Shown here: one piece after another, positions 14,410-53,415 of the stretch
Position numbering within the stretch: the first letter of the stretch is position 1
Layout: each line of letters begins with the position of its first letter
Assembly (NCBI GenBank): GCA_024640305.1
Contig: JAHEFG010000007.1
Coordinates: 18,999 to 82,998 of the forward strand
DNA length: 64,000 bases
Direction: 5' to 3'
Source: Gammaproteobacteria bacterium
GTDB lineage: Bacteria; Pseudomonadota; Gammaproteobacteria; Steroidobacterales; Woeseiaceae
The notes under the pieces: model-generated
The model's input: the letters and a program-made list of their open reading frames with translations, nothing else
Databases searched by the model: none
What the model was told of the DNA's origin: nothing
Position numbers and translations under genes: made by a program

Positions 14410-15414
14410 ATGGCCAAAACGATTGACACGTGGCGGGACACGTGGCGGGAAGCAATGCCGGGACTGTTGCTGAGTGCGACGATCGCACTTGCCGTGAGAT
14501 TCGTCAGCGACCGGCTTGGTGGTCCTGCGATGTTGTATGCCTTGTTGTTTGGTATGGCGTTCAACTTTCTTACCGAAGATGAGCGTTTTGCGCGAGGCAT
14601 TCGCTTTGCGAGCCGCAATATTCTACGAATCGGAGTCGCGCTGCTTGGTCTGCGCATTACGACGGAGCAGGTAATGGAGCTCGGCTGGCCGGTGGTTGCC
14701 CTGATCGTGGTGAGCGTAACGGCGACTATCTTGATTGGCGGGCTCATTGGGCGTGCCTTCGGTTTGAAAGGTGATCAGTCCATTCTTTCGGCAGGCGCAG
14801 TTGCGATCTGCGGAGCGTCCGCTGCGCTTGCGATAGCCTCCGTACTTCCGGCGCACAAAGATTCTGAACGCAACACAATTCTGACTGTTGCGGGCGTTAC
14901 TGCGCTAAGCACCGTCGCCATGGTCTTTTACCCGGTATTCGTAACTTACCTCGACTACGACCATGCTACTGCGGGCGTTTTCCTTGGGGCTACGATTCAT
15001 GATGTCGCACAGGTGGTTGGTGCCGGTTATATGATTTCGGATCAAACCGGCGAGATTTCCACGCTAGTCAAACTGATTCGCGTAGCCTGTCTCGTGCCGG
15101 TCGTGATCACGATCTCGCTGCTGATGCGCCGCAGCCGAACCGCAGAATTCCGCAAGGAGCCCCTGTTGCCCTGGTTTCTCGTGGCATTCGTTGTGCTGGT
15201 CATCGTCAATAGTCTGGGTTGGGTTCCCGCACAGGCGCATGATGTCTTGACGCCTGTTTCGAGCTGGTCGTTGCTTACGGCCGTCGCAGCTCTGGGGGTC
15301 AAGACTTCGCTAAAGGCGCTGGTCGATGTTGGTCCCGCACCGGTTGGTGTCATGTTGATCCAGACCATTTTCCTTGCCGTTGTGGTAATTGCTGGTATCC
15401 AGTTCATCGCTTAA
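14410..15414 (+). CDS. YeiH-family (UPF0324) putative sulfate/sulfite exporter
   Basis: A 334-residue membrane protein with about ten hydrophobic helices and the family signature AGAVAICGASAALAIASVLP. YeiH-type proteins are annotated as putative sulfate exporters, and relatives occur with taurine- and sulfonate-degradation genes. Here it stands in front of a sulfur-type gene cluster, which supports a role in exporting sulfite or sulfate. The ribosome site before the ATG is weak. A 12-bp tandem duplication near the start encodes DTWRDTWRE (about residues 6-14). Confidence 0.75.
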   Translation: MAKTIDTWRDTWREAMPGLLLSATIALAVRFVSDRLGGPAMLYALLFGMAFNFLTEDERFARGIRFASRNILRIGVALLGLRITTEQVMELGWPVVALIVVSVTATILIGGLIGRAFGLKGDQSILSAGAVAICGASAALAIASVLPAHKDSERNTILTVAGVTALSTVAMVFYPVFVTYLDYDHATAGVFLGATIHDVAQVVGAGYMISDQTGEISTLVKLIRVACLVPVVITISLLMRRSRTAEFRKEPLLPWFLVAFVVLVIVNSLGWVPAQAHDVLTPVSSWSLLTAVAALGVKTSLKALVDVGPAPVGVMLIQTIFLAVVVIAGIQFIA

Positions 15415-15573
15415 TCGGCCGCGTCCAAACACGATTGCCTTGTCGCCCTGAGCAACGCCCGGGGCGGGCGGGAATTGCTGCACTCAACGTGCGGCGGCGA
15501 TCCGTTTCCAGTGTCCTGCGGGACAAAGTTCCTGACGACACACACCCCTGTAAATCTACGTATAGAATCATTC

Positions 15574-15594
15574 GCTAATTTAGGGAAAGCTAAT
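15574..15594 (+). promoter_or_regulatory. Possible promoter/operator of the sulfur operon
   Basis: In the 231-bp gap before the YeeE/YedE genes, the hexamer GCTAAT occurs twice, 15 bp apart (15574 and 15589), running into an AT-rich TATATAAAGG stretch that could hold a -10 element. No second promoter signal is visible between here and 21387. The rest of 15415-15645 shows no gene. Confidence 0.3.
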
Positions 15595-15645
15595 ATATAA
15601 AGGTGATGTACGCCTGTGAACTGATCGTTTTGACAGGAGATAGGA

Positions 15646-16158
15646 ATGAAGTTTGGCACACGCTGGCCGCCTATACCGGCTGGAATTCTAATCGGAATCA
15701 GCATGTTGCTTGCGTTCGTTGTAGCGGGTCGCGGCATCGGGGCGAGTGGGGCAATGACGCGGCTGGTAGCCTGGGTGCAGCACGGCCTTTTCCCGGCCGC
15801 AACTGAACAAAGTGCGTACTTCGGAAAATATTTCGCCGATGGCGCGCATCCGCTGAATGACTACGTGGTGTTTCTGCTGGTCGGATTGCTGGTCGGTAGT
15901 TTCGTCGCTGCTTGGTTAAGCGGAGAATTGCGGGTCGAAGTCTTGCGAGGGCCGCGGAGCTCTGTCGCTTATCGTCTTGGCCTTGCTCTTGCCGGCGGTA
16001 TCCTTGTCGGGTTTGCCGCGCGGCTTGCGCGTGGTTGCACAAGCGGCCAGGGGCTGGTTGGCGGTGCTGAGCTTTCGGTAGGTGCGTGGGTTTTCCTGAT
16101 GTGCATATTTGCCGGTGGCTGGATGGCTGCCTGGTTTGTGAGAAAGCAATGGATATGA
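15646..16158 (+). CDS. YeeE/YedE-family sulfur transport protein, first half
   Basis: A 170-residue membrane protein with four or five hydrophobic helices. It carries RLARGCTSGQGLVGG with C131, the conserved cysteine motif of the YeeE/YedE (Sulf_transp) family. Full-length members such as TsuA carry thiosulfate by passing it between conserved cysteines. Here the transporter is split: the next gene encodes the matching second half and overlaps it. AGGAG lies 7 bases upstream of the ATG. It begins a run of six tightly packed genes. Confidence 0.8.
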   Translation: MKFGTRWPPIPAGILIGISMLLAFVVAGRGIGASGAMTRLVAWVQHGLFPAATEQSAYFGKYFADGAHPLNDYVVFLLVGLLVGSFVAAWLSGELRVEVLRGPRSSVAYRLGLALAGGILVGFAARLARGCTSGQGLVGGAELSVGAWVFLMCIFAGGWMAAWFVRKQWI

Positions 16159-16961
16159 TCGCACCGCTCGTCAAAACCGGCGTTATTTCGTCGACTCTTA
16201 ACCTTTGGTTGGCGTTGCCAATTGGTTTCCTGTTCGGTTTTGCGTTGTTTCATGCCGGCTTTACAGATAGTCGCCGCATTGCCTGGGCTTTCTACTTCAA
16301 GGACGTCGGGGTTCCAGTCGTTATGTTCTCGGCTATCGCAACAGGCATGCTCGGTCTATGGGGCTTGAGCCTGATTGGTTTTCTGGATATTTCGAAGGTC
16401 TATATGCTGCCCACTTTTTTGCTGCCGATGGCGATTGGGGGAGTGATTTTTGGACTTGGTATGGTGATCGGTGGCTACTGTCCCGGAACGGCGGCAGCAT
16501 CGATCGCAACCGGCAAAATAGATGCGGTTATTTTCATTGTTGGTTTTTTGCTGGGCAGTCTGGTCTTCGGCGATTTTTTCCCGGTCTGGGGCGATTTCTA
16601 TAACAGCGACTACATGGGCGTTTTTCGTCTTGATCAGTGGCTCGGCATTGGACTCGGCCAAACAGTTCTTTTAGTAGTGCTGATTGCTGTGAGTGGAACA
16701 ATCTTCATGCGCTTTGTCCAGAACAAGGTCTGGCCACCTGCCGAAGTGGACCCGCAGGAGAAATACGTCATCAGACTTCACGCCGCCCTGATAGCCGTGG
16801 CATTGGTAATAGGAATTACGTTTACTTTCTTTCCCAGCGAATCGTTTATCGACGATAGTGTTGAAACGCCTTATTACATTGTCCCCAAAACAACGGTTAG
16901 TCAGGCCATATCGGAAGCTCAAACTTTAGAGTTTTCTGATCTCGCAGGAAGTGGCGCATGA
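16149..16961 (+). CDS. YeeE/YedE-family sulfur transport protein, second half, extended
   Basis: A 270-residue membrane protein. Residues 1-190 carry the second-half motif GLGMVIGGYCPGTAAASIAT with C111. A final helix (about 211-228) and a 40-residue hydrophilic tail extend beyond the usual half-size length. The start at 16149 (or ATG 16155) overlaps the stop of the first half; an upstream ATG at 16086 in the same frame would lie deep inside that gene. Its stop overlaps the next start in ATGA. The two halves together probably form one channel for thiosulfate or a related sulfur species; the C-terminal tail has no assigned role. Confidence 0.75.
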   Translation: MDMIAPLVKTGVISSTLNLWLALPIGFLFGFALFHAGFTDSRRIAWAFYFKDVGVPVVMFSAIATGMLGLWGLSLIGFLDISKVYMLPTFLLPMAIGGVIFGLGMVIGGYCPGTAAASIATGKIDAVIFIVGFLLGSLVFGDFFPVWGDFYNSDYMGVFRLDQWLGIGLGQTVLLVVLIAVSGTIFMRFVQNKVWPPAEVDPQEKYVIRLHAALIAVALVIGITFTFFPSESFIDDSVETPYYIVPKTTVSQAISEAQTLEFSDLAGSGA

Positions 16962-19147
16962 AACGACGAGAGTTCATCAAGGTATCCAGCTTGCTTGGTA
17001 CGAGCGCCGCTGTTGCACCGCCATTTATGTTGGGTGGTTGCGTAACGAATCCCCCGCCGGGAACAGGAGTCGTCAGCAAATCACCAACGATTTGTGACAT
17101 GTGTTTCTGGAAGTGCGCGGGCGAGGTCTACAAAGAAGACGGGGAATTGTGGAAGATCACGGGCAACGAGGATGACCTGCACAGTGGTGGGCGTCTGTGC
17201 ACCCGCGGCACCGGTGGTCCGGGAGCCTATCTTGATCGGGATCGACTCAAGAAGCCCCTGATGCGAGTTACCGTCGATGGTCGACAGACGTTTCAGGAAG
17301 TGTCCTGGGATGAGGCTCTGCATTTCATAAGTGAGAAAATGCAGGGCATAGCGGCCAGCGCAGGGCCAGAGCGATTGGCAATGCTGCATCATGGAGCAGG
17401 AGGGCATCATTTCCTGCATCTGTTGCGTGCGTTCGGGTCAAACAGCCATGCAGAGCCTGCATTTGCCCAGTGCCGGGGGCCACGTGACGTTGGCTTCAGG
17501 TTGACCGTCGGCGAGTCCGCCAGTTCTCCGGAGCGAACGGACATGGCTAATGCAAAGTGCATCGTATTGCTGGGCTCGCATATTGGCGAAAACCTGCACA
17601 ACGCACAGGTACAGACACTTGCCGAAGCAATCAACAAAGACGTTACGCTCATAACAGTCGACCCGCGCTTCTCGGTTCCGGCAGGCAAGTCGAAATACTG
17701 GCTGCCCATCAAGCCGGGAACCGACATTGCACTTCTGCTTGCGTGGATGAATGTGCTGATTAGTGAAGATCTGTGCGACACCGACTATCTCGACCGTTAC
17801 GCGATCGGTTTTGAACAATTGGCCGAGCACGTGCGGGAATACACACCAGAATGGGTTTACCTGGAAACCGGTATTCGTCCCGAAGTGATTCGTGAGACAG
17901 CGCGAGAACTGGCGAAAGCGGCGCCCGCGGCAATTGTGCATCCGGGGCGCCATGCTGTTTGGTACGGCGACGATACGCAACGCAGCCGTGCCATTGCCAT
18001 GCTGAACGCCTTGCTTGGTTCATGGAACCGTAAAGGTGGTTTCTACATTCCAGAGAAGGTTGCTCTTCCAGAATATCCAATTCCGGAATATCCAAAGCCA
18101 AAATTTTCTACGGGGGATGCCTATCCGGGCAAGTGGCCATTTGCAAGCCAGGGCGTTACGAACGGTGTTATTGACGCATCGATAGGTGAAGACGCCTTTT
18201 TCAAGGGCTGGTTGGTTTATGGTACCAACCTGCCGCAATCGATTCCGGCGGTTAAGGACAAGCTGAGAGCAGCTGCGAACTCGCTGGATTTGCTGGTAGT
18301 CGTCGAGACCATGCCGTCGGAAATGACAGGTTATGCTGACGTCATCCTGCCTGAATGTACCTACCTCGAGCGCTACGACGACCTGCGAAACTCTGGCGAG
18401 CGGCACCCGTCGCTTGCTTTGAGAATGCCGGCGTTCGAACCAAAGTACGAGAGCAAACCCGGTTGGTGGATTGCCAAGCAGCTTGGTAACCGCCTCGGCC
18501 TCGAAGAATACTTTCCTTGGCAGGACTATGCAGAAAAACTTGACTGGCAACTGCAACAGGTGGGTAGTTCTTTGGAGGAAATGCAGAAGATTGGCGTCAA
18601 GAACTTCCCTCGAAAATACCCGCTGTACTTCCGCGATGGCCAGCGCGTTCAGTTCGCGACACCAAGTCGAAAGATCGAATTGTATTCGCAACAACTGGCT
18701 GACAAAGGTTTCGATCCGATGCCGGTTTACACGCCACCGGAGCCTGTACCAAGCGGCTACTATCGACTCAACTACGGCCGCATGCCAGCACACACATTTG
18801 GCAAGACCACCAACAACCCGCTGCTGTTCCAACTCGCACCGGAAAACCAGCTGTGGGTAAACCCAATGGTTGCGAACGAGTGGTCAATCAAGAACGCTGA
18901 GTACGTTCGTCTGGCGAGCCCGAGCGGTGCAATTAGCAATAAGATAAGGGTTCGCGTTACCGAGAGAATCGGACCGGATTCGGTGTTTATGGCGCATGGT
19001 TTCGGGCACAAGTCGAAGCGCTTGCGTTTGACTGCCGGTGTCGGAGCTGACGACTCAGAACTCATGAGCAATATAAAAATTGATCCGATTATGGGTAGCA
19101 CTGGTATGCGCAGCAATTTTGTGACCTTTGTTAAAGAGCAGGCCTGA
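16958..19147 (+). CDS. Molybdopterin oxidoreductase, Psr/Phs-type catalytic subunit
   Basis: A 729-residue catalytic subunit. The N-terminus has a Tat signal (RREFIK at 3-8). A 4Fe-4S site follows (C46, C49, C53, C81), then CRGPRDVG, where C172 is the probable molybdenum ligand. The length and subunit set fit polysulfide/thiosulfate reductase (PsrA/PhsA), not the longer tetrathionate reductase or the unexported SoeA sulfite dehydrogenase. It would work in the periplasm, complexed with the ferredoxin and NrfD-like subunits encoded next. It could reduce thiosulfate or polysulfide, or run in the oxidative direction; sequence alone does not decide. Its ATGA overlap with the upstream transporter gene links uptake and redox chemistry. 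Confidence 0.8.
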   Translation: MKRREFIKVSSLLGTSAAVAPPFMLGGCVTNPPPGTGVVSKSPTICDMCFWKCAGEVYKEDGELWKITGNEDDLHSGGRLCTRGTGGPGAYLDRDRLKKPLMRVTVDGRQTFQEVSWDEALHFISEKMQGIAASAGPERLAMLHHGAGGHHFLHLLRAFGSNSHAEPAFAQCRGPRDVGFRLTVGESASSPERTDMANAKCIVLLGSHIGENLHNAQVQTLAEAINKDVTLITVDPRFSVPAGKSKYWLPIKPGTDIALLLAWMNVLISEDLCDTDYLDRYAIGFEQLAEHVREYTPEWVYLETGIRPEVIRETARELAKAAPAAIVHPGRHAVWYGDDTQRSRAIAMLNALLGSWNRKGGFYIPEKVALPEYPIPEYPKPKFSTGDAYPGKWPFASQGVTNGVIDASIGEDAFFKGWLVYGTNLPQSIPAVKDKLRAAANSLDLLVVVETMPSEMTGYADVILPECTYLERYDDLRNSGERHPSLALRMPAFEPKYESKPGWWIAKQLGNRLGLEEYFPWQDYAEKLDWQLQQVGSSLEEMQKIGVKNFPRKYPLYFRDGQRVQFATPSRKIELYSQQLADKGFDPMPVYTPPEPVPSGYYRLNYGRMPAHTFGKTTNNPLLFQLAPENQLWVNPMVANEWSIKNAEYVRLASPSGAISNKIRVRVTERIGPDSVFMAHGFGHKSKRLRLTAGVGADDSELMSNIKIDPIMGSTGMRSNFVTFVKEQA

Positions 19148-19158
19148 AGGAATTATCG

Positions 19159-19701
19159 ATGACACGTTATGCCATGGTAATAGACACGAAGACCTGCATC
19201 GGCTGCGGCGATTGTGTAGTTGCTTGCAAGACTGAGAATAAAGTGCCCGAAGGTCTTAATCGGGACTGGGTCGTTGAAGCAACCAACGGTACTTACCCAA
19301 ATCTTACGACGGAGTTTCGATCAGAGCGTTGCAACCACTGTTCCAACGCAACCTGTGTCACGCTCTGTCCGACAGGTGCCAGCCATCACTGGAACGATAC
19401 GAATATCGTGCTGGTCGAAGCCGAAAAATGCACCGGGTGCAAAGCGTGCATCGCCGCTTGTCCTTACGACGCGCGACTCGTCATGCACCCCGATGGATAC
19501 ATCGACAAATGTACGTTTTGTCATCACCGCGTTGAGCAAGGGTTGGATCCAGCTTGTGTATCAAGTTGCCCGACTCGTTGCATGCACTTCGGCTCATTGG
19601 ATGATCCGCATAGCAAAGTGAATCAGTTGTTGAAAACACGCCAGCACAAAGTGCTTATCCCGGAAACGGGCAATGACCCCAACGTCTATTACTTAACTTA
19701 A
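19159..19701 (+). CDS. Ferredoxin subunit with four 4Fe-4S clusters (PsrB/PhsB-like)
   Basis: A 180-residue electron-transfer subunit. Sixteen cysteines fall in four groups: C13/16/19/23, C58/61/66/70, C91/94/97/101 and C118/121/133/137, the DmsB/PsrB arrangement. It has no signal peptide of its own; such subunits are exported with their Tat-carrying partner. AAGGA lies 7-8 bases before the ATG, 11 bp after the catalytic gene. It passes electrons between the molybdenum site and the membrane subunit. Confidence 0.88.
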   Translation: MTRYAMVIDTKTCIGCGDCVVACKTENKVPEGLNRDWVVEATNGTYPNLTTEFRSERCNHCSNATCVTLCPTGASHHWNDTNIVLVEAEKCTGCKACIAACPYDARLVMHPDGYIDKCTFCHHRVEQGLDPACVSSCPTRCMHFGSLDDPHSKVNQLLKTRQHKVLIPETGNDPNVYYLT

Positions 19702-19714
19702 GGGCCAGGACCGC

Positions 19715-20719
19715 ATGTCGGAAGAACTACTTGTTACCGCGAGAAGCAACGCGCTGATCGACCCCAGCCTGCACATATGGACCTGGGAAGTGGCCATGTA
19801 CCTGTTCATGGGGGGGCTGACGGCCGGGATAATGATCTTCTCTGCCCTGATGATCGTGCGCAATAAGGGTCACGTCGCTCCCTTTGCAGCTGCCCGCCTG
19901 TCGCTGCTTGCACCAATCGTATTGTCGCTGGGTATGACAACTTTGTTCCTCGATCTGGAGCACAAGCTGTTCGTATACCGCTTTTATACGTCATTCCAGA
20001 TTACTTCCCCGATGTCATGGGGCGCCTGGATCCTCATCGTTGTGTATCCGATATCGGTGCTGCAGATACTGTCGACCATCCGCACAGGTTACTCGTCCCT
20101 GGCGTCGTATATCGACAGACTGACGATAGGGCGGGTAGTGGTTGATTGGTGCGAGCGTAATCGAACAGAGATAGCTTTTGCAGTCATTCCATTCGCCGTA
20201 GCGCTCGGGATTTATACCGGTATTCTGCTCAGTGCTTTCGGCGCCAGGCCGTTTTGGAATTCCGGGGTACTCGGACTGCTGTTCCTGGTTTCCGGAATGT
20301 CTACCGCTGCGGCGCTGGTCGTGCTCCTTGCGCGCCAGAGTAGTGAGAGAGACCTGTTCACGCGGATCGACCTGGTGCTGATCTTCGCGGAGATTGCGCT
20401 GGTCGTGCTGTCACTGATTAGCCTGGCATCAGGATCAGGTCAACACATAGACGCGCTACAAAGCGTCATGGGCGGTTCCTATACGTTGTCATTCTGGGTA
20501 TTGTTCGTCGGTATCGGCCTGTTGATACCAATGGTATTGGAGCTTCTGGAATTATCAGGGGTCAGCAAGTCTCTGGCCATGCTCGCCCCGGTTTTGGTTC
20601 TCGTTGGCGGGTACGCATTGCGGCAGGTCGTCATTGATGCTGGCCAGGAGAGCACATGGACAAGCTATTCCACTCAATACAGTGCTGAATTGCTGCAACG
20701 CCTGCCTCAACCAGATTAG
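19715..20719 (+). CDS. NrfD/PsrC-type membrane subunit
   Basis: A 334-residue protein with eight predicted transmembrane helices, as in PsrC. The first has MYLFMGGLTAGIM and the second ends in LFLDLEHKLFVYRF, both typical of the family. It exchanges electrons with quinone and anchors the periplasmic subunits. Spacing to the preceding gene is 13 bp. With the two upstream genes it makes a complete three-subunit complex. Confidence 0.85.
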   Translation: MSEELLVTARSNALIDPSLHIWTWEVAMYLFMGGLTAGIMIFSALMIVRNKGHVAPFAAARLSLLAPIVLSLGMTTLFLDLEHKLFVYRFYTSFQITSPMSWGAWILIVVYPISVLQILSTIRTGYSSLASYIDRLTIGRVVVDWCERNRTEIAFAVIPFAVALGIYTGILLSAFGARPFWNSGVLGLLFLVSGMSTAAALVVLLARQSSERDLFTRIDLVLIFAEIALVVLSLISLASGSGQHIDALQSVMGGSYTLSFWVLFVGIGLLIPMVLELLELSGVSKSLAMLAPVLVLVGGYALRQVVIDAGQESTWTSYSTQYSAELLQRLPQPD

Positions 20720-20754
20720 AATACCGAACCAACACACATGCAGGGGGCAATGGT

Positions 20755-21387
20755 TTGTTGAAAAGAATCATAAAGGCGACTTTGCTTACAACAATGTTCG
20801 CATTCGTCGTTGCTTGTGATTCGTCGGACGAATCGCAGGTTTCACTGGCAGCGGTTGCACTGGCGGCAGCACAGCAAGACGATCGGGAAAGCGTTGAAGA
20901 TCTGGCCAGGTGGCTGATCGAGGGGCGAGGGGATTTCAAGCTCATTGATGTACGCAGACCCGAAGATTTCGAGAACGGTAGTATTGCGGATGCAGAAAAC
21001 ATCCCCATCGCGCAAATCGTATCTCAGGATGTGTTATCTCGCTTGCCGACCGATCGCATGGTTATCGTGTTTTCGAACGGTTCCGAGAATGCGGCGAAGG
21101 CGGCAGTGCTGTTGCGGCTGTCAGGGATAGATGCGCACTTGTTGGCTGGAGGCTACAACGCCTGGCACAAGCGGATTCTCAATCCCGACATTTCGGCGGA
21201 TGAGCTCGATGGCGAAAGCCTGAAAGTGTCGGAGCAACGTGCCTACAGTTGTTATTTCGTTGGCGAGCGATCCGAGCTTGGCGCAAAGCGAGAGCAACAA
21301 TCGAGCGTGCCGTTTGTTCCCCCCGTTTTCACCGAGGGAGAAGAGCTGGCTGTTCCACCGCCTGCGGCTGGGGAGGAATCCTGCTAA
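20755..21387 (+). CDS. Rhodanese-like lipoprotein lacking the catalytic cysteine
   Basis: A 210-residue protein. Lipobox FVVAC places a lipidated cysteine at C21. A rhodanese domain (about 48-140) shows LIDVRRPEDFENGSI and HLLAGGYNAW. The active-site loop that is normally C-R-x-G-x-R reads SNGSEN, with S107 where the sulfur-carrying cysteine should be, so sulfurtransfer by the usual mechanism is excluded. Two other cysteines occur in the C-terminal tail (in YSCYFVG and as the last residue). The start is TTG, at 20755 or 20758, after AGGGGG. It follows the NrfD gene by 35 bp and abuts the stop of the 11-heme cytochrome gene. Confidence 0.75.
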   Translation: MLKRIIKATLLTTMFAFVVACDSSDESQVSLAAVALAAAQQDDRESVEDLARWLIEGRGDFKLIDVRRPEDFENGSIADAENIPIAQIVSQDVLSRLPTDRMVIVFSNGSENAAKAAVLLRLSGIDAHLLAGGYNAWHKRILNPDISADELDGESLKVSEQRAYSCYFVGERSELGAKREQQSSVPFVPPVFTEGEELAVPPPAAGEESC

Positions 21388-23046
21388 CTAGCGGGGTACC
21401 GGATCGTCTTCACCTTCGACTGGTATCAGTGCATTCAGCACGGCATCCATTTCCGCTTTGTTGAGCGGACGCTGACCGGATGCAGGTGTGCCGCCACCGA
21501 GCGTATTGCCGATATTCGTCCATGCATCTGCCGGGAGACCATCTCGAAGCAGGTGGTTAGCAGGTTTGAACACTATCTGGCCTGCTTTTTTTGTGAGTTG
21601 ACCCTGGCCTAATCCCAATGCCTCACTCGAGCGGTGACACGACTCGCAGCTACGCGACTTTCCCGTTGTATGGGGCGACAGAGGAGCGAATATGCGGACG
21701 AACTTTTCTTCTTCCAGATCCGGATGATCGACCGTCATGACCATCCCGGGCACAAAAAGCTCAATGTGATCTTCGTCGTTAACGCCAAGGGCAGGCAAGG
21801 CGTTATTGACGTGCCATCGTTTGCTGCTCCATCGACCCGGAGTGATTGCGCGCTCGACGTGATCCCATTGCTCACCGTCGGCGTCATACTCCATGTGACA
21901 GCCAAAGCACTGCGGCGCCCATTGGCTGTGGCAGGAAGCGCAAGCAAGTCGCTCATGGCGTTCGTCATGCTCGTAAACGGTGCGAGTTACTGTCGGGATT
22001 TTCAGCGCTCTGCCAGTATTTTTTGTATGTAACCAGGCTCCGTCTTCTCGAAGTTCAACATGCCACAACGGAGTGCCTTTGTTTGCGGTCGTCAGGAAAG
22101 CGGTTTCACTGGTTGTCGCAAAAGGCAGTCGCGCGACGACACTGACAAGATCCCTGGGCCATTCGGTGAGATTGATTGTCGGGCGTTGGTTGTCGTGACA
22201 GTCGGTGCACGAAATATCGATGGCCTGGCGTTGGTGAAGGGCGTCGCCAGCATCGCCCATAAGACCAACGCTCGTGTGGCAATCGATACAACTCATGCCG
22301 GCCAGGTAGTGCACATCGCCCGGCATCTTCTCGACGTGCCGGCCATCGGGTAAGCGCATACCGCGATCGTCGCCAGAACCGGGTAGTGGGTCGACTTCTG
22401 CCAGTCCGGAGAAACTAAGTGATATCCGACCCGAGCGAGCGTGGCAGCCGAAACACCGTGCGTCGGAAACGTTGGCCGTTAGAGCGGGGTGTGCATTCTC
22501 CGGGTATTCGCCGACATGGCAGGCCAGGCAGCCGCCGCCGCGATCCCACATTACGTTGTGGCGGTGTTCGGTTTTTGTCTGGCCGATATGGCAACTTGCA
22601 CATTGTTTGCGCAACATTGAGTCCGCGACACTGTGCCCCAGCGACTGAAAATTTATCGATTCATTCGCACCGCTATTGTTGTCGAGCAGCTGTCGAGTCA
22701 CTCGGACGATGCCTCGACCGTCATGCATCAAATTATTCGTGACGGCAGCAACCCTGTCGTGATGACAATTTCCGCAACCACGTGCGGCATTTGCTAACTC
22801 GCCGGGAAAAGCAAGTAGCCCTGCGTGCGCGCTTTCTTCTGTGGATGCCGTGTTGTTACCGGCATGGCAGCTAACGCAATTATCTGCTGCGAAACCATGT
22901 GCAGGGTTAAACCCCGCTTGTTTGTTTGAATGACAAAGCAGGCAGGTGCTTGCCGCAGGCTCATCAGCCAGGGCGCTCGGCATTAGCTGCGAGGCCGCGG
23001 ATAGTACGGCAAGCAAACAGAGATTTAGCGTGAGTCGTTGCAACAT
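21388..23046 (-). CDS. Undecaheme periplasmic cytochrome c
   Basis: A 552-residue exported protein with a signal peptide (about 27 residues) and eleven CxxCH heme motifs: CLLCH, CVSCH, CGNCH, CASCH, CLACH, CFGCH, CIDCH, CTDCH, CASCH, CFGCH and CESCH. There is no C-terminal membrane anchor. Many free histidines could serve as distal ligands. A roughly 110-residue stretch without heme sites lies between sites 8 and 9, and another about as long between 10 and 11. The gene is tail-to-tail with the sulfur operon, stop against stop. It may be the electron partner or sink of that system, but I do not recognise a named family. Confidence 0.75.
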   Translation of the reverse strand: MLQRLTLNLCLLAVLSAASQLMPSALADEPAASTCLLCHSNKQAGFNPAHGFAADNCVSCHAGNNTASTEESAHAGLLAFPGELANAARGCGNCHHDRVAAVTNNLMHDGRGIVRVTRQLLDNNSGANESINFQSLGHSVADSMLRKQCASCHIGQTKTEHRHNVMWDRGGGCLACHVGEYPENAHPALTANVSDARCFGCHARSGRISLSFSGLAEVDPLPGSGDDRGMRLPDGRHVEKMPGDVHYLAGMSCIDCHTSVGLMGDAGDALHQRQAIDISCTDCHDNQRPTINLTEWPRDLVSVVARLPFATTSETAFLTTANKGTPLWHVELREDGAWLHTKNTGRALKIPTVTRTVYEHDERHERLACASCHSQWAPQCFGCHMEYDADGEQWDHVERAITPGRWSSKRWHVNNALPALGVNDEDHIELFVPGMVMTVDHPDLEEEKFVRIFAPLSPHTTGKSRSCESCHRSSEALGLGQGQLTKKAGQIVFKPANHLLRDGLPADAWTNIGNTLGGGTPASGQRPLNKAEMDAVLNALIPVEGEDDPVPR

Positions 23047-24143: not shown

Positions 24144-24242
24144 TCGCAGATTACACGGTGCTGCGGCCGGGTTACTGTCAGAAATTGTCTGTTTGGATTG
24201 AGTCACGGCGCGGAAGCGGCCATAATCGCGCCCGGTCCGCGT

Positions 24243-24338
<96 letters not shown>

Positions 24339-53054: not shown

Positions 53055-53415
53055 TGGTGGAGGTGGCGAGAATCGAACTCGCGTCCGCAAGCCCTCTGCC
53101 CTAAGGTCTACATGCTTATTCCGTCTTTAATCTCACTGTGGGCTACCCGACGGGCAGGGAAGACTCACAGCCAGTTCAGAAAGGATTTAACGGTTCGGGC
53201 CCTGAACATGCCCTTGCCGCGGTCCCGTGTCGGTGACCCCTGAACCCCAGACGCACAGGCACGTTTGGTCAGAGGGCGCTAAACTGGTTTTTAAGCAGCT
53301 AGTGCGTAGTTGTCGTCGTTGGCAACTATGGTTTTTACAGCTGGATTTACGAGGTAATCTGTCCCTCGGCATGCACTCGGAGTTTCGCGACCCACGTCGA
53401 AGCCAAATCACCCCC
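53055..53415 (-). ncRNA. ssrA: Transfer-messenger RNA
   Basis: A 361-nt one-piece tmRNA. The 5' end reads GGGGGTGATTTGGCTTCGAC and the 3' end closes a tRNA-like T arm with an encoded CCA. The tag frame at 53291-53323 reads GCC AAC GAC GAC AAC TAC GCA CTA GCT GCT TAA, giving ANDDNYALAA. It rescues stalled ribosomes and marks the products for proteolysis together with SmpB, encoded just upstream on the same strand. Confidence 0.95.

Follow-up and report, generated by a model that had tools for sequence, protein, structure and literature searches.

Several described sulfur systems approach the locus considered here, each from a different side. The polysulfide reductase of Thermus thermophilus (2vpw, deposited as a thiosulfate reductase) is a molybdoenzyme complex that presumably contains a four-cluster B subunit and an NrfD subunit, and SoeABC, a Psr-like sulfite dehydrogenase, oxidises sulfite. 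SoxY and DsrC hold their substrate on a mobile C-terminal arm, by a cysteine at its end or close to it. To our knowledge, the route by which insoluble or scarce polysulfide reaches Psr-type enzymes is poorly understood. Here we analyse a 64,000-nucleotide stretch of DNA (the window; contig JAHEFG010000007.1, positions 18,999 to 82,998) from a Woeseiaceae draft genome (G000, 78% complete), and report the observed gene content, co-occurrence and conserved residues of a module within it. The module consists of seven genes, encoding a pair of YeeE/YedE half-transporters, a PsrA-type catalytic subunit, a ferredoxin subunit, an NrfD-type membrane subunit, a rhodanese-fold lipoprotein and an 11-heme cytochrome, and these seven genes are one inherited unit. 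Its most unexpected point is the lipoprotein, a pseudo-rhodanese that lacks the active-site cysteine and ends in a cysteine.

The comparison with known systems separates what is familiar in the module from what is not. Below, comparison loci carry L numbers and genomes G numbers, and statements about articles cited by PMC number refer to their available excerpts. The Thermus enzyme shares with the module the PsrA counterparts of His145, Cys173, Arg332, His333 and Trp336; it is 44.4% identical to the module protein and lacks the lipobox cysteine found there. PhsABC, from an Escherichia coli SE11 plasmid (L128), has the PsrA/PhsA-type subunit in common with the module, but its identity is 33.4%, its active-site positions besides the cysteine differ and its third subunit is annotated as a cytochrome B rather than NrfD. 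The Geobacter ext cluster (ExtHIJKLMNOPQS) unites an ExtM-type multiheme cytochrome and a rhodanese as the module does, whereas ExtM has 12 hemes, a porin, a Rieske protein and a b cytochrome are included, and the excerpt lists no molybdoenzyme (PMC5877670). An ExtKL-type cytochrome, sought with the L118 protein, was not found in G000, a draft at 78% completeness, and 4 of the 21 module genomes match. The Psr operon of Desulfurivibrio dismutans includes an exported three-domain rhodanese lipoprotein, like the basal variant of the module described below, but its excerpt mentions no split YeeE pair, Cys-tailed pseudo-rhodanese or 11-heme cytochrome (PMC12142623). The selenite reductase SrrABC(DEF) of Bacillus selenitireducens likewise combines a PsrA-lineage subunit with rhodanese-domain genes in its operon, with no cytochrome or YeeE named in the excerpt (PMC12481199).

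The YTD cluster of sulfur disproportionators is defined by yedE contiguous with tusA, dsrE and chp genes (PMC12998232); the genes of our run, the only part of the genome compared with this definition, have other identities. No title or abstract opening listed by searches of the open PMC library describes the present gene combination, subscription papers lying mostly outside that search, and the module is not described in the excerpts of PMC12142623, PMC13047784, PMC6148476, PMC5877670, PMC12998232, PMC9948710, PMC7451513, PMC5573963, PMC8443593, PMC7331816 or PMC12481199. The features that look new are the pseudo-rhodanese with its Cys tail, the ExtM-like partner and the exchange of one entry protein for another; the enzyme lineage itself is known.

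The lipoprotein gene (20755..21387, forward strand, TTG start) encodes a rhodanese fold (PF00581) with a C-terminal tail. A first-pass annotation of this DNA had called the protein a cysteine-less rhodanese, which is right for the active site, where Ser107 (codon 21073..21075) takes the place of the catalytic cysteine, and wrong for the protein, which contains Cys21 in the lipobox, Cys166 and, as its last residue, Cys210 (codon 21382..21384). We compared 28 copies after removal of three duplicates. The active-site loop cysteine that marks a rhodanese sulfurtransferase is absent from all 28, the position being Ser in 27 and Gly in L084 (25 copies aligned, three judged by eye). The last residue is Cys in 26 of the 28, which are all 26 with an intact 3' end, and the ending is mostly ...EESC or ...EGC; the two exceptions are L065, cut by a contig end, and L056, broken by a frame change. 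As background, 19 of 1005 other open frames of at least 150 residues at 45 loci end in Cys, a count that includes non-coding frames and sets 22 lipoprotein frames aside. The next-best rhodaneses in a sample of 369 genomes of the class (G110, G147, G240) retain the active cysteine and have no terminal one.

The AlphaFold model of the lipoprotein has blocks of confidence 90-98 at residues 31-140 and falls to 49-63 after residue 170, as expected of a flexible tail, and Foldseek searches with this model returned ordinary rhodanese folds as top matches. By analogy, these features suggest that the working cysteine may have moved from the rhodanese loop to a mobile tail, forming a carrier arm like those of SoxY and DsrC. 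Those proteins would work alike through a Cys arm but have an unrelated fold; the module protein combines a rhodanese fold, an N-terminal anchor and a cysteine as the very last residue. The homologue at L142 has a membrane-helix-like N-terminus in place of the lipobox, judged by eye, and that at L141 has its N-terminus cut off.

Evidence that the genes belong together comes from their recurrence. Scanning contigs with the window's catalytic subunit yielded 26 loci, from hosts that include Woeseiaceae, Thiogranum, Thiohalobacter, Wenzhouxiangella and the isolate Sinimarinibacterium sp. CAU 1509, and because the arrangement recurs in other genera and families it is more than chance. At least one YeeE gene precedes the catalytic gene in 20 of the 26 loci. 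The remaining six comprise L048, which starts 40 bases before the catalytic gene, L062 and L063, with a triple rhodanese, and L060, L066 and L067, with neither in the available sequence. The lipoprotein gene is present in 18 loci; among the eight without it, the contigs of L050, L052, L054, L066, L068 and L070 end inside the enzyme operon, that of L067 ends about 120 bases past nrfD, and the genome of L060 (G156) has the gene elsewhere. The cytochrome accompanies the lipoprotein in 16 of the 18 loci (L065 ends inside the lipoprotein gene), convergent in 15 of the 16 and in the same direction in L062.

Counts across whole genomes agree with the synteny. Within the genus sample (73 genomes), a full or near-full catalytic orthologue (at least 82% identity) occurs in 12 genomes, the cytochrome in 13, counting G000, and both together in 12. 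Two drafts hold partial sets: in G017 the catalytic gene is represented by a 57-residue fragment where a contig ends, and the cytochrome was not found in this draft; G026 carries the cytochrome and lipoprotein on a contig that starts inside nrfD. In the class sample, with thresholds of E 1e-100 for the catalytic subunit, 1e-20 for the cytochrome and 1e-15 for the lipoprotein profile, nine of 369 genomes pass the catalytic threshold, of which G139 and G452, only 35% identical, were not counted as orthologues. The cytochrome occurs in eight genomes, including all seven with a catalytic orthologue; the eighth, G391, has no catalytic match, and one of its contigs breaks off with an nrfD end and the lipoprotein gene. 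The lipoprotein profile matches 11 genomes, and the eight scoring above 100 bits are exactly the eight cytochrome genomes, the remaining three scoring 60-65 bits. Association of cytochrome and catalytic gene gave Fisher p values of 5e-14 in the class and 9e-12 in the genus, uncorrected for kinship. Thus, the earlier proposal that the transporter pair, molybdoenzyme, rhodanese lipoprotein and 11-heme cytochrome form a linked set is supported by both synteny and genome counts. In a plasmid collection the cytochrome had no match, and the best 40 of 916 matches to the catalytic subunit are mostly annotated PhsA, at about 31% identity.

The gene preceding the catalytic subunit exists in two forms. 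A multi-domain rhodanese stands in place of the YeeE pair in five loci (L062, L063, L083 of G435, L084 of G228 and L118 of G382), and no locus holds both. Pfam identifies three rhodanese stretches in L063, L083 and L118; the L062 copy is cut by a contig end, and L084 carries two tandem copies. The loop cysteine is present, by motif, in two domains of all six complete copies (L063, L083, L118, two of L084, and L140, a copy elsewhere on G391's contig), and the protein is judged by eye to be exported. In a tree of catalytic subunits, 18 rows with YeeE and L048, which lacks upstream sequence, make up a group of 19 (support 99), and the rows of the rhodanese type (L062, L063, L083 and L084) fall outside it. 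Thus, the transporter pair probably replaced the sulfurtransferase, and the first-pass reading of the locus as a sulfur uptake system went too far, an exported triple rhodanese occupying the transporter's place in the five basal loci. Gene order is also looser in some genomes: the cytochrome precedes the catalytic gene by a few kilobases (kb) in G228 and G382 and lies directly upstream of the triple rhodanese in G435, and about 23 kb separate the lipoprotein gene from the catalytic gene in G156. Strict neighbourhood is a trait of the YeeE form; co-occurrence reaches wider.

Family calls rest on Pfam and NCBIfam profile scores, with curated NCBIfam cut-offs deciding membership. The catalytic subunit (16958..19147, forward, 729 residues; PF00384, PF01568, PF04879) matches the Thermus reductase 2vpw at E 4.6e-187 and is 51-52% identical to L066 and L067. 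Positions aligned with Thermus His145, Cys173, Arg332, His333 and Trp336, which we take to be catalytic, with Cys173 presumably the molybdenum ligand, are invariant in 24 of 24 module rows, and L066 and L067 share all five. Cys172 (codon 17471..17473) is the window's counterpart of Thermus Cys173. The plasmid PhsA has Lys, Cys, His, Arg and Phe at these positions, only the Cys being the same, and the PhsA family model NF012032 scores the window protein at 456.9 bits against a cut-off of 694. A Cys molybdenum ligand is stated for the PsrA/PhsA/SrrA lineage (PMC7331816), and the aligned Cys is present in all 24 module copies. The N-terminus of the window's subunit (16958..17041) carries an RR motif of the twin-arginine translocation (Tat) type and ends in a lipobox-like LGGC at Cys28, both motifs judged by eye; Cys28 stands in such a context in 24 of 24 module copies and in none of six comparison proteins. 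Thus, by its sequence motifs the subunit is a predicted Tat lipoprotein and probably lipid-anchored.

The catalytic tree was built by a quick method from 37 rows, most module rows having been retrieved with patterns drawn from the window's own protein, with one polysulfide reductase and one PhsA as references, and it has five open forks. Short, split, duplicate, unrelated or frame-extended sequences (L050, L068, L070, L081, L082, L085, L086, L087, L090, L117, L118) were left out. The 24 module rows form one group (support 100), joined next by L066 and L067 (93) and then by Thermus (99), apart from the one PhsA, with a warning from the tree program that the branches of Thermus, PhsA and the other enzymes are long and may be joined falsely. 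The separate clade that the first-pass annotation had proposed looking for appears as a supported group of its own, within this small reference set. By its identity to the Thermus enzyme and its active-site residues, the catalytic subunit is best described as Psr-like, of a known enzyme lineage. Some metagenome-assembled genomes (MAGs) that the tree places in its Woeseiaceae group carry other labels, Chromatiales (L052, L065) and Lysobacterales (L049).

The remaining operon genes conform to a PsrABC complex preceded by a split transporter, and sequence and Pfam together bore out the genes, coordinates and ATGA overlaps first assigned to them. YeeE half 1 (15646..16158, forward, 170 residues; PF04143, 89.7 bits) and half 2 (16149..16961, forward, 270 residues; PF04143, 57.8 bits; DUF6691, 30.5 bits) overlap, and half 2 also overlaps the catalytic gene, with ATGA at 16155-16158 and 16958-16961; half 2 has a second in-frame ATG beginning at 16149. 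Half 1 lies far below the cut-offs of the curated NCBIfam TsuA and YedE/FdhT (YeeE-type) models (56 bits against 645 and 37 against 400) and half 2 has no match to them. Cys131 of half 1 is kept in 19 of 19 aligned copies and Cys111 of half 2 in 21 of 21. The ferredoxin subunit (19159..19701, forward; PF13247) has 17 Cys, probably binding four [4Fe-4S] clusters, and these positions are kept in 24-25 of 25 copies; the NrfD/PsrC-type subunit (19715..20719, forward) scores 149.7 bits against PF03916. Thus both the multi-cluster ferredoxin and the NrfD-type quinone subunit expected of PsrABC are present. Gaps after the catalytic gene are short, with 11 base pairs (bp) before the ferredoxin gene, 13 bp before nrfD and 35 bp before the lipoprotein gene. 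Guanine-cytosine content of the module is similar to that of its flanks, and promoter and terminator scans of the window gave signals at the level of shuffled sequence.

The cytochrome gene (21388..23046, reverse strand) converges on the operon and abuts the lipoprotein gene tail to tail. Its product, with a signal peptide and exactly 11 CXXCH motifs, has as its sole long NCBIfam match ExtM (NF040943), at 207.8 bits against a cut-off of 800; it is a remote relative of Geobacter ExtM and not a family member. All 25 full-length homologues have 11 CXXCH, a count that leaves out duplicates, the truncated L062 and a 12-motif paralogue, and nine His outside these motifs, against 11 hemes, are kept in at least 23 of the 25. 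Some Woeseiaceae copies are without a stretch of about 70 residues, and those at L091 and L092 look by eye like lipoproteins, which the window's copy does not. The AlphaFold model has a mean predicted local distance difference test score of 48.8. The 12-motif paralogue, at L116:1583-3436 (G435), is a second homologue at 28% identity.

Genes for an ExtKL-like pentaheme, a tetraheme, a DsrO-like and a DsrP-type protein lie near the 11-heme cytochrome in L118 (2150-6526) and L084 (15756-19001), and the same cluster is on another contig in G289 (L144:2564-7309), with its dsrO/dsrP part near the lipoprotein gene in L142 (G435). Against the NCBIfam cut-offs, the DsrP-like protein of L118 passes (405 against 350 bits), DsrO falls slightly short (193.8 against 200) and ExtKL fails (66.7 against 250). 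The cluster recalls the dsrOhPh-tetrahaem locus of cable bacteria (PMC13047784).

We tentatively read the module as a Psr-type sulfane-sulfur oxidoreductase with a tethered substrate carrier, giving this reading a little less than even confidence. PsrA, exported by the Tat route and probably lipid-anchored, would form a periplasm-facing complex with the ferredoxin and NrfD subunits, exchanging electrons with the quinone pool and interconverting polysulfide or protein-bound sulfane sulfur and sulfide. The pseudo-rhodanese would no longer transfer sulfur through its own loop; its ...E-(G/S)-C tail would carry sulfur as a persulfide between an entry protein and the PsrA site, as the SoxY and DsrC arms do. 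The entry protein would be the YeeE pair in the window and the active triple rhodanese in basal relatives, and the 11-heme cytochrome would be the periplasmic electron partner. The complex, its substrate, the carrier role and the electron route are what we infer here. We offer with greater reserve, as a possibility, the specific proposal that the Cys arm of the anchored pseudo-rhodanese ferries sulfane sulfur, or a selenium analogue, covalently from a membrane entry protein to lipid-anchored PsrA, with the 11-heme cytochrome as dedicated electron partner. If true, this would be a new way of feeding a molybdoenzyme, with sulfur respiration or oxidation running on tethered, not dissolved, polysulfide.

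Quinone genes bear on the likely direction of the reaction. By their redox potentials, ubiquinol cannot reduce polysulfide in a ubiquinone-only cell, and selenite is a high-potential acceptor. Neither menaquinone pathway was found in the window's draft genome, 78% complete, so polysulfide reduction by quinol is doubtful there, and oxidation, or an acceptor of higher potential such as selenite, would suit this genome better; lineages that have menaquinone genes are the likelier ones for reduction. The complex could run backwards, oxidising periplasmic sulfane sulfur or persulfide and passing electrons to ubiquinone, the 11-heme cytochrome or both, much as SoeABC does with sulfite. We consider this rather unlikely, even though MenD is below its cut-off in 14 of 21 carriers and the futalosine family PF02621 in all 21, the nearly complete genomes G094 (99%) and G228 (98%) included, and Woeseiales have been described as sulfur oxidisers (PMC7451513). 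Set against oxidation are the genes beside the cytochrome. In G391 (L113, 9939-16555) menaquinone (men) genes adjoin it, and in G298 (L057, 9932-17020) they follow it past one thioesterase-like frame; in L055 they lie about 4 kb away. MenD and MenB pass NCBIfam cut-offs in L113 and L081, menF and menA being assigned labels only. A type III sulfide:quinone oxidoreductase (SQR) with CBS-like C-terminal domains, which would yield the same product as the oxidative enzyme, adjoins the cytochrome at L055:16208-18046 and L069:14069-15823. Together the men and SQR neighbours suit sulfide/polysulfide cycling with menaquinone, and hydrogenotrophic sulfur reduction has been attributed to Woeseiaceae MAGs (PMC8443593).

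A different substrate would make the module a respiratory or protective selenite/tellurite reductase of the Srr/Ext kind, in which the PsrA homologue would use ubiquinol to reduce selenite, the pseudo-rhodanese would bind selenium or sulfur and the ExtM-like cytochrome would share electrons. The high potential of selenite suits such a scheme, as does the cytochrome's match to ExtM, and so do the cytochrome's neighbours in L118 and L084, the ExtKL-like, tetraheme, DsrO-like and DsrP-type genes. Geobacter that has lost extI is impaired in selenite/tellurite reduction, and the ext cluster also has a rhodanese (PMC6148476, PMC5877670), while SrrA is of the same lineage as our catalytic subunit and the srr operon encodes rhodanese-domain proteins (PMC7331816, PMC12481199). 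We nevertheless regard this alternative as unlikely: the cytochrome, at 208 bits, misses the ExtM cut-off of 800, the flanking window genes tested, to which the look for an ExtI porin was confined, encode by Pfam a lipocalin and PPK2, the ExtKL-like gene occurs in 4 of 21 carriers and in none of 14 from the window's genus, and the SQR neighbours indicate sulfur. We think it quite improbable that the cytochrome and lipoprotein ride along as passengers, forming an independent pair for electron transfer or stress co-inherited with an ordinary polysulfide reductase. The lipoprotein gene of G156 lies far from the catalytic gene with the cytochrome on another contig, as it is in G289, and the G391 cytochrome sits beside men genes; against this, cytochrome and lipoprotein share genomes even when apart (eight of eight in the class sample).

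Several observations weigh against the tethered-carrier reading. Cys166 is kept in 22 of 25 copies, so the tail Cys is not the sole conserved one, and low AlphaFold confidence is no proof that the tail is flexible. MenD passes its cut-off in 7 of the 21 module genomes (G030 and G062 in the genus; G156, G289, G298, G391 and G435 in the class) and PF02621 in none, and a menaquinol-driven reductase is therefore unlikely in many carriers, perhaps in the window's genome. A Phs/Psr sequence alone cannot give the substrate (PMC13047784), and the module does not follow DsrA in the genus; Dsr-linked sulfur oxidation was rejected as its context, DsrA being over its cut-off in 8 of 73 genomes and in only 2 of 14 carriers (G014, G017; Fisher p 0.64). 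Adjacency is also imperfect. The first-pass annotation had held that absence of the cytochrome beside the enzyme in relatives would undo the linkage; it is present in all 14 other YeeE loci that reach past the lipoprotein gene, but G156 and G289 have it on a different contig from the catalytic gene, in G391 about 14.5 kb separate it from the lipoprotein gene, and the 22 kb of L063 do not contain it.

The terminal Cys of the rhodanese, the ExtM kinship of the cytochrome and the lipobox-like Cys of PsrA had all been missed earlier. A conserved Cys-tailed protein without a loop Cys, encoded beside the enzyme, offers an idea that hangs on a single residue and is directly testable. Additionally, the finding ties relatives of ExtM cytochromes to a molybdoenzyme, and it gives Woeseiaceae, a family abundant in marine sediments across the world (PMC5573963), a further trait in sulfur redox.

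Outside the seven genes, the YeiH-type gene (14410-15414; PF03601, 236 bits; TIGR00698, 147 bits, below its cut-off of 232.6) had been counted as part of the system. It is a chance neighbour: 231 bp, the largest gap in the run, separate it from YeeE half 1, and tblastn at 46 other loci, duplicates included, gave no match. The window's SDR-like (short-chain dehydrogenase/reductase) gene, named by eye, and its lipocalin, ppk2 and dnaX genes were likewise not found by tblastn at these 46 loci. A wider conserved neighbourhood was also rejected, the clusters shared by at least three loci being antisense frames or flanks of few loci. At L061:10474-11106, about 4 kb beyond the cytochrome, lies a gene for an uptake-hydrogenase maturation protease of the HyaD/HybD family. 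The window further contains a bacterial small signal recognition particle RNA at 24240-24336, between ppk2 and the dnaX-like gene, and a transfer-messenger RNA gene at 53055-53415 with the tag ANDDNYALAA.

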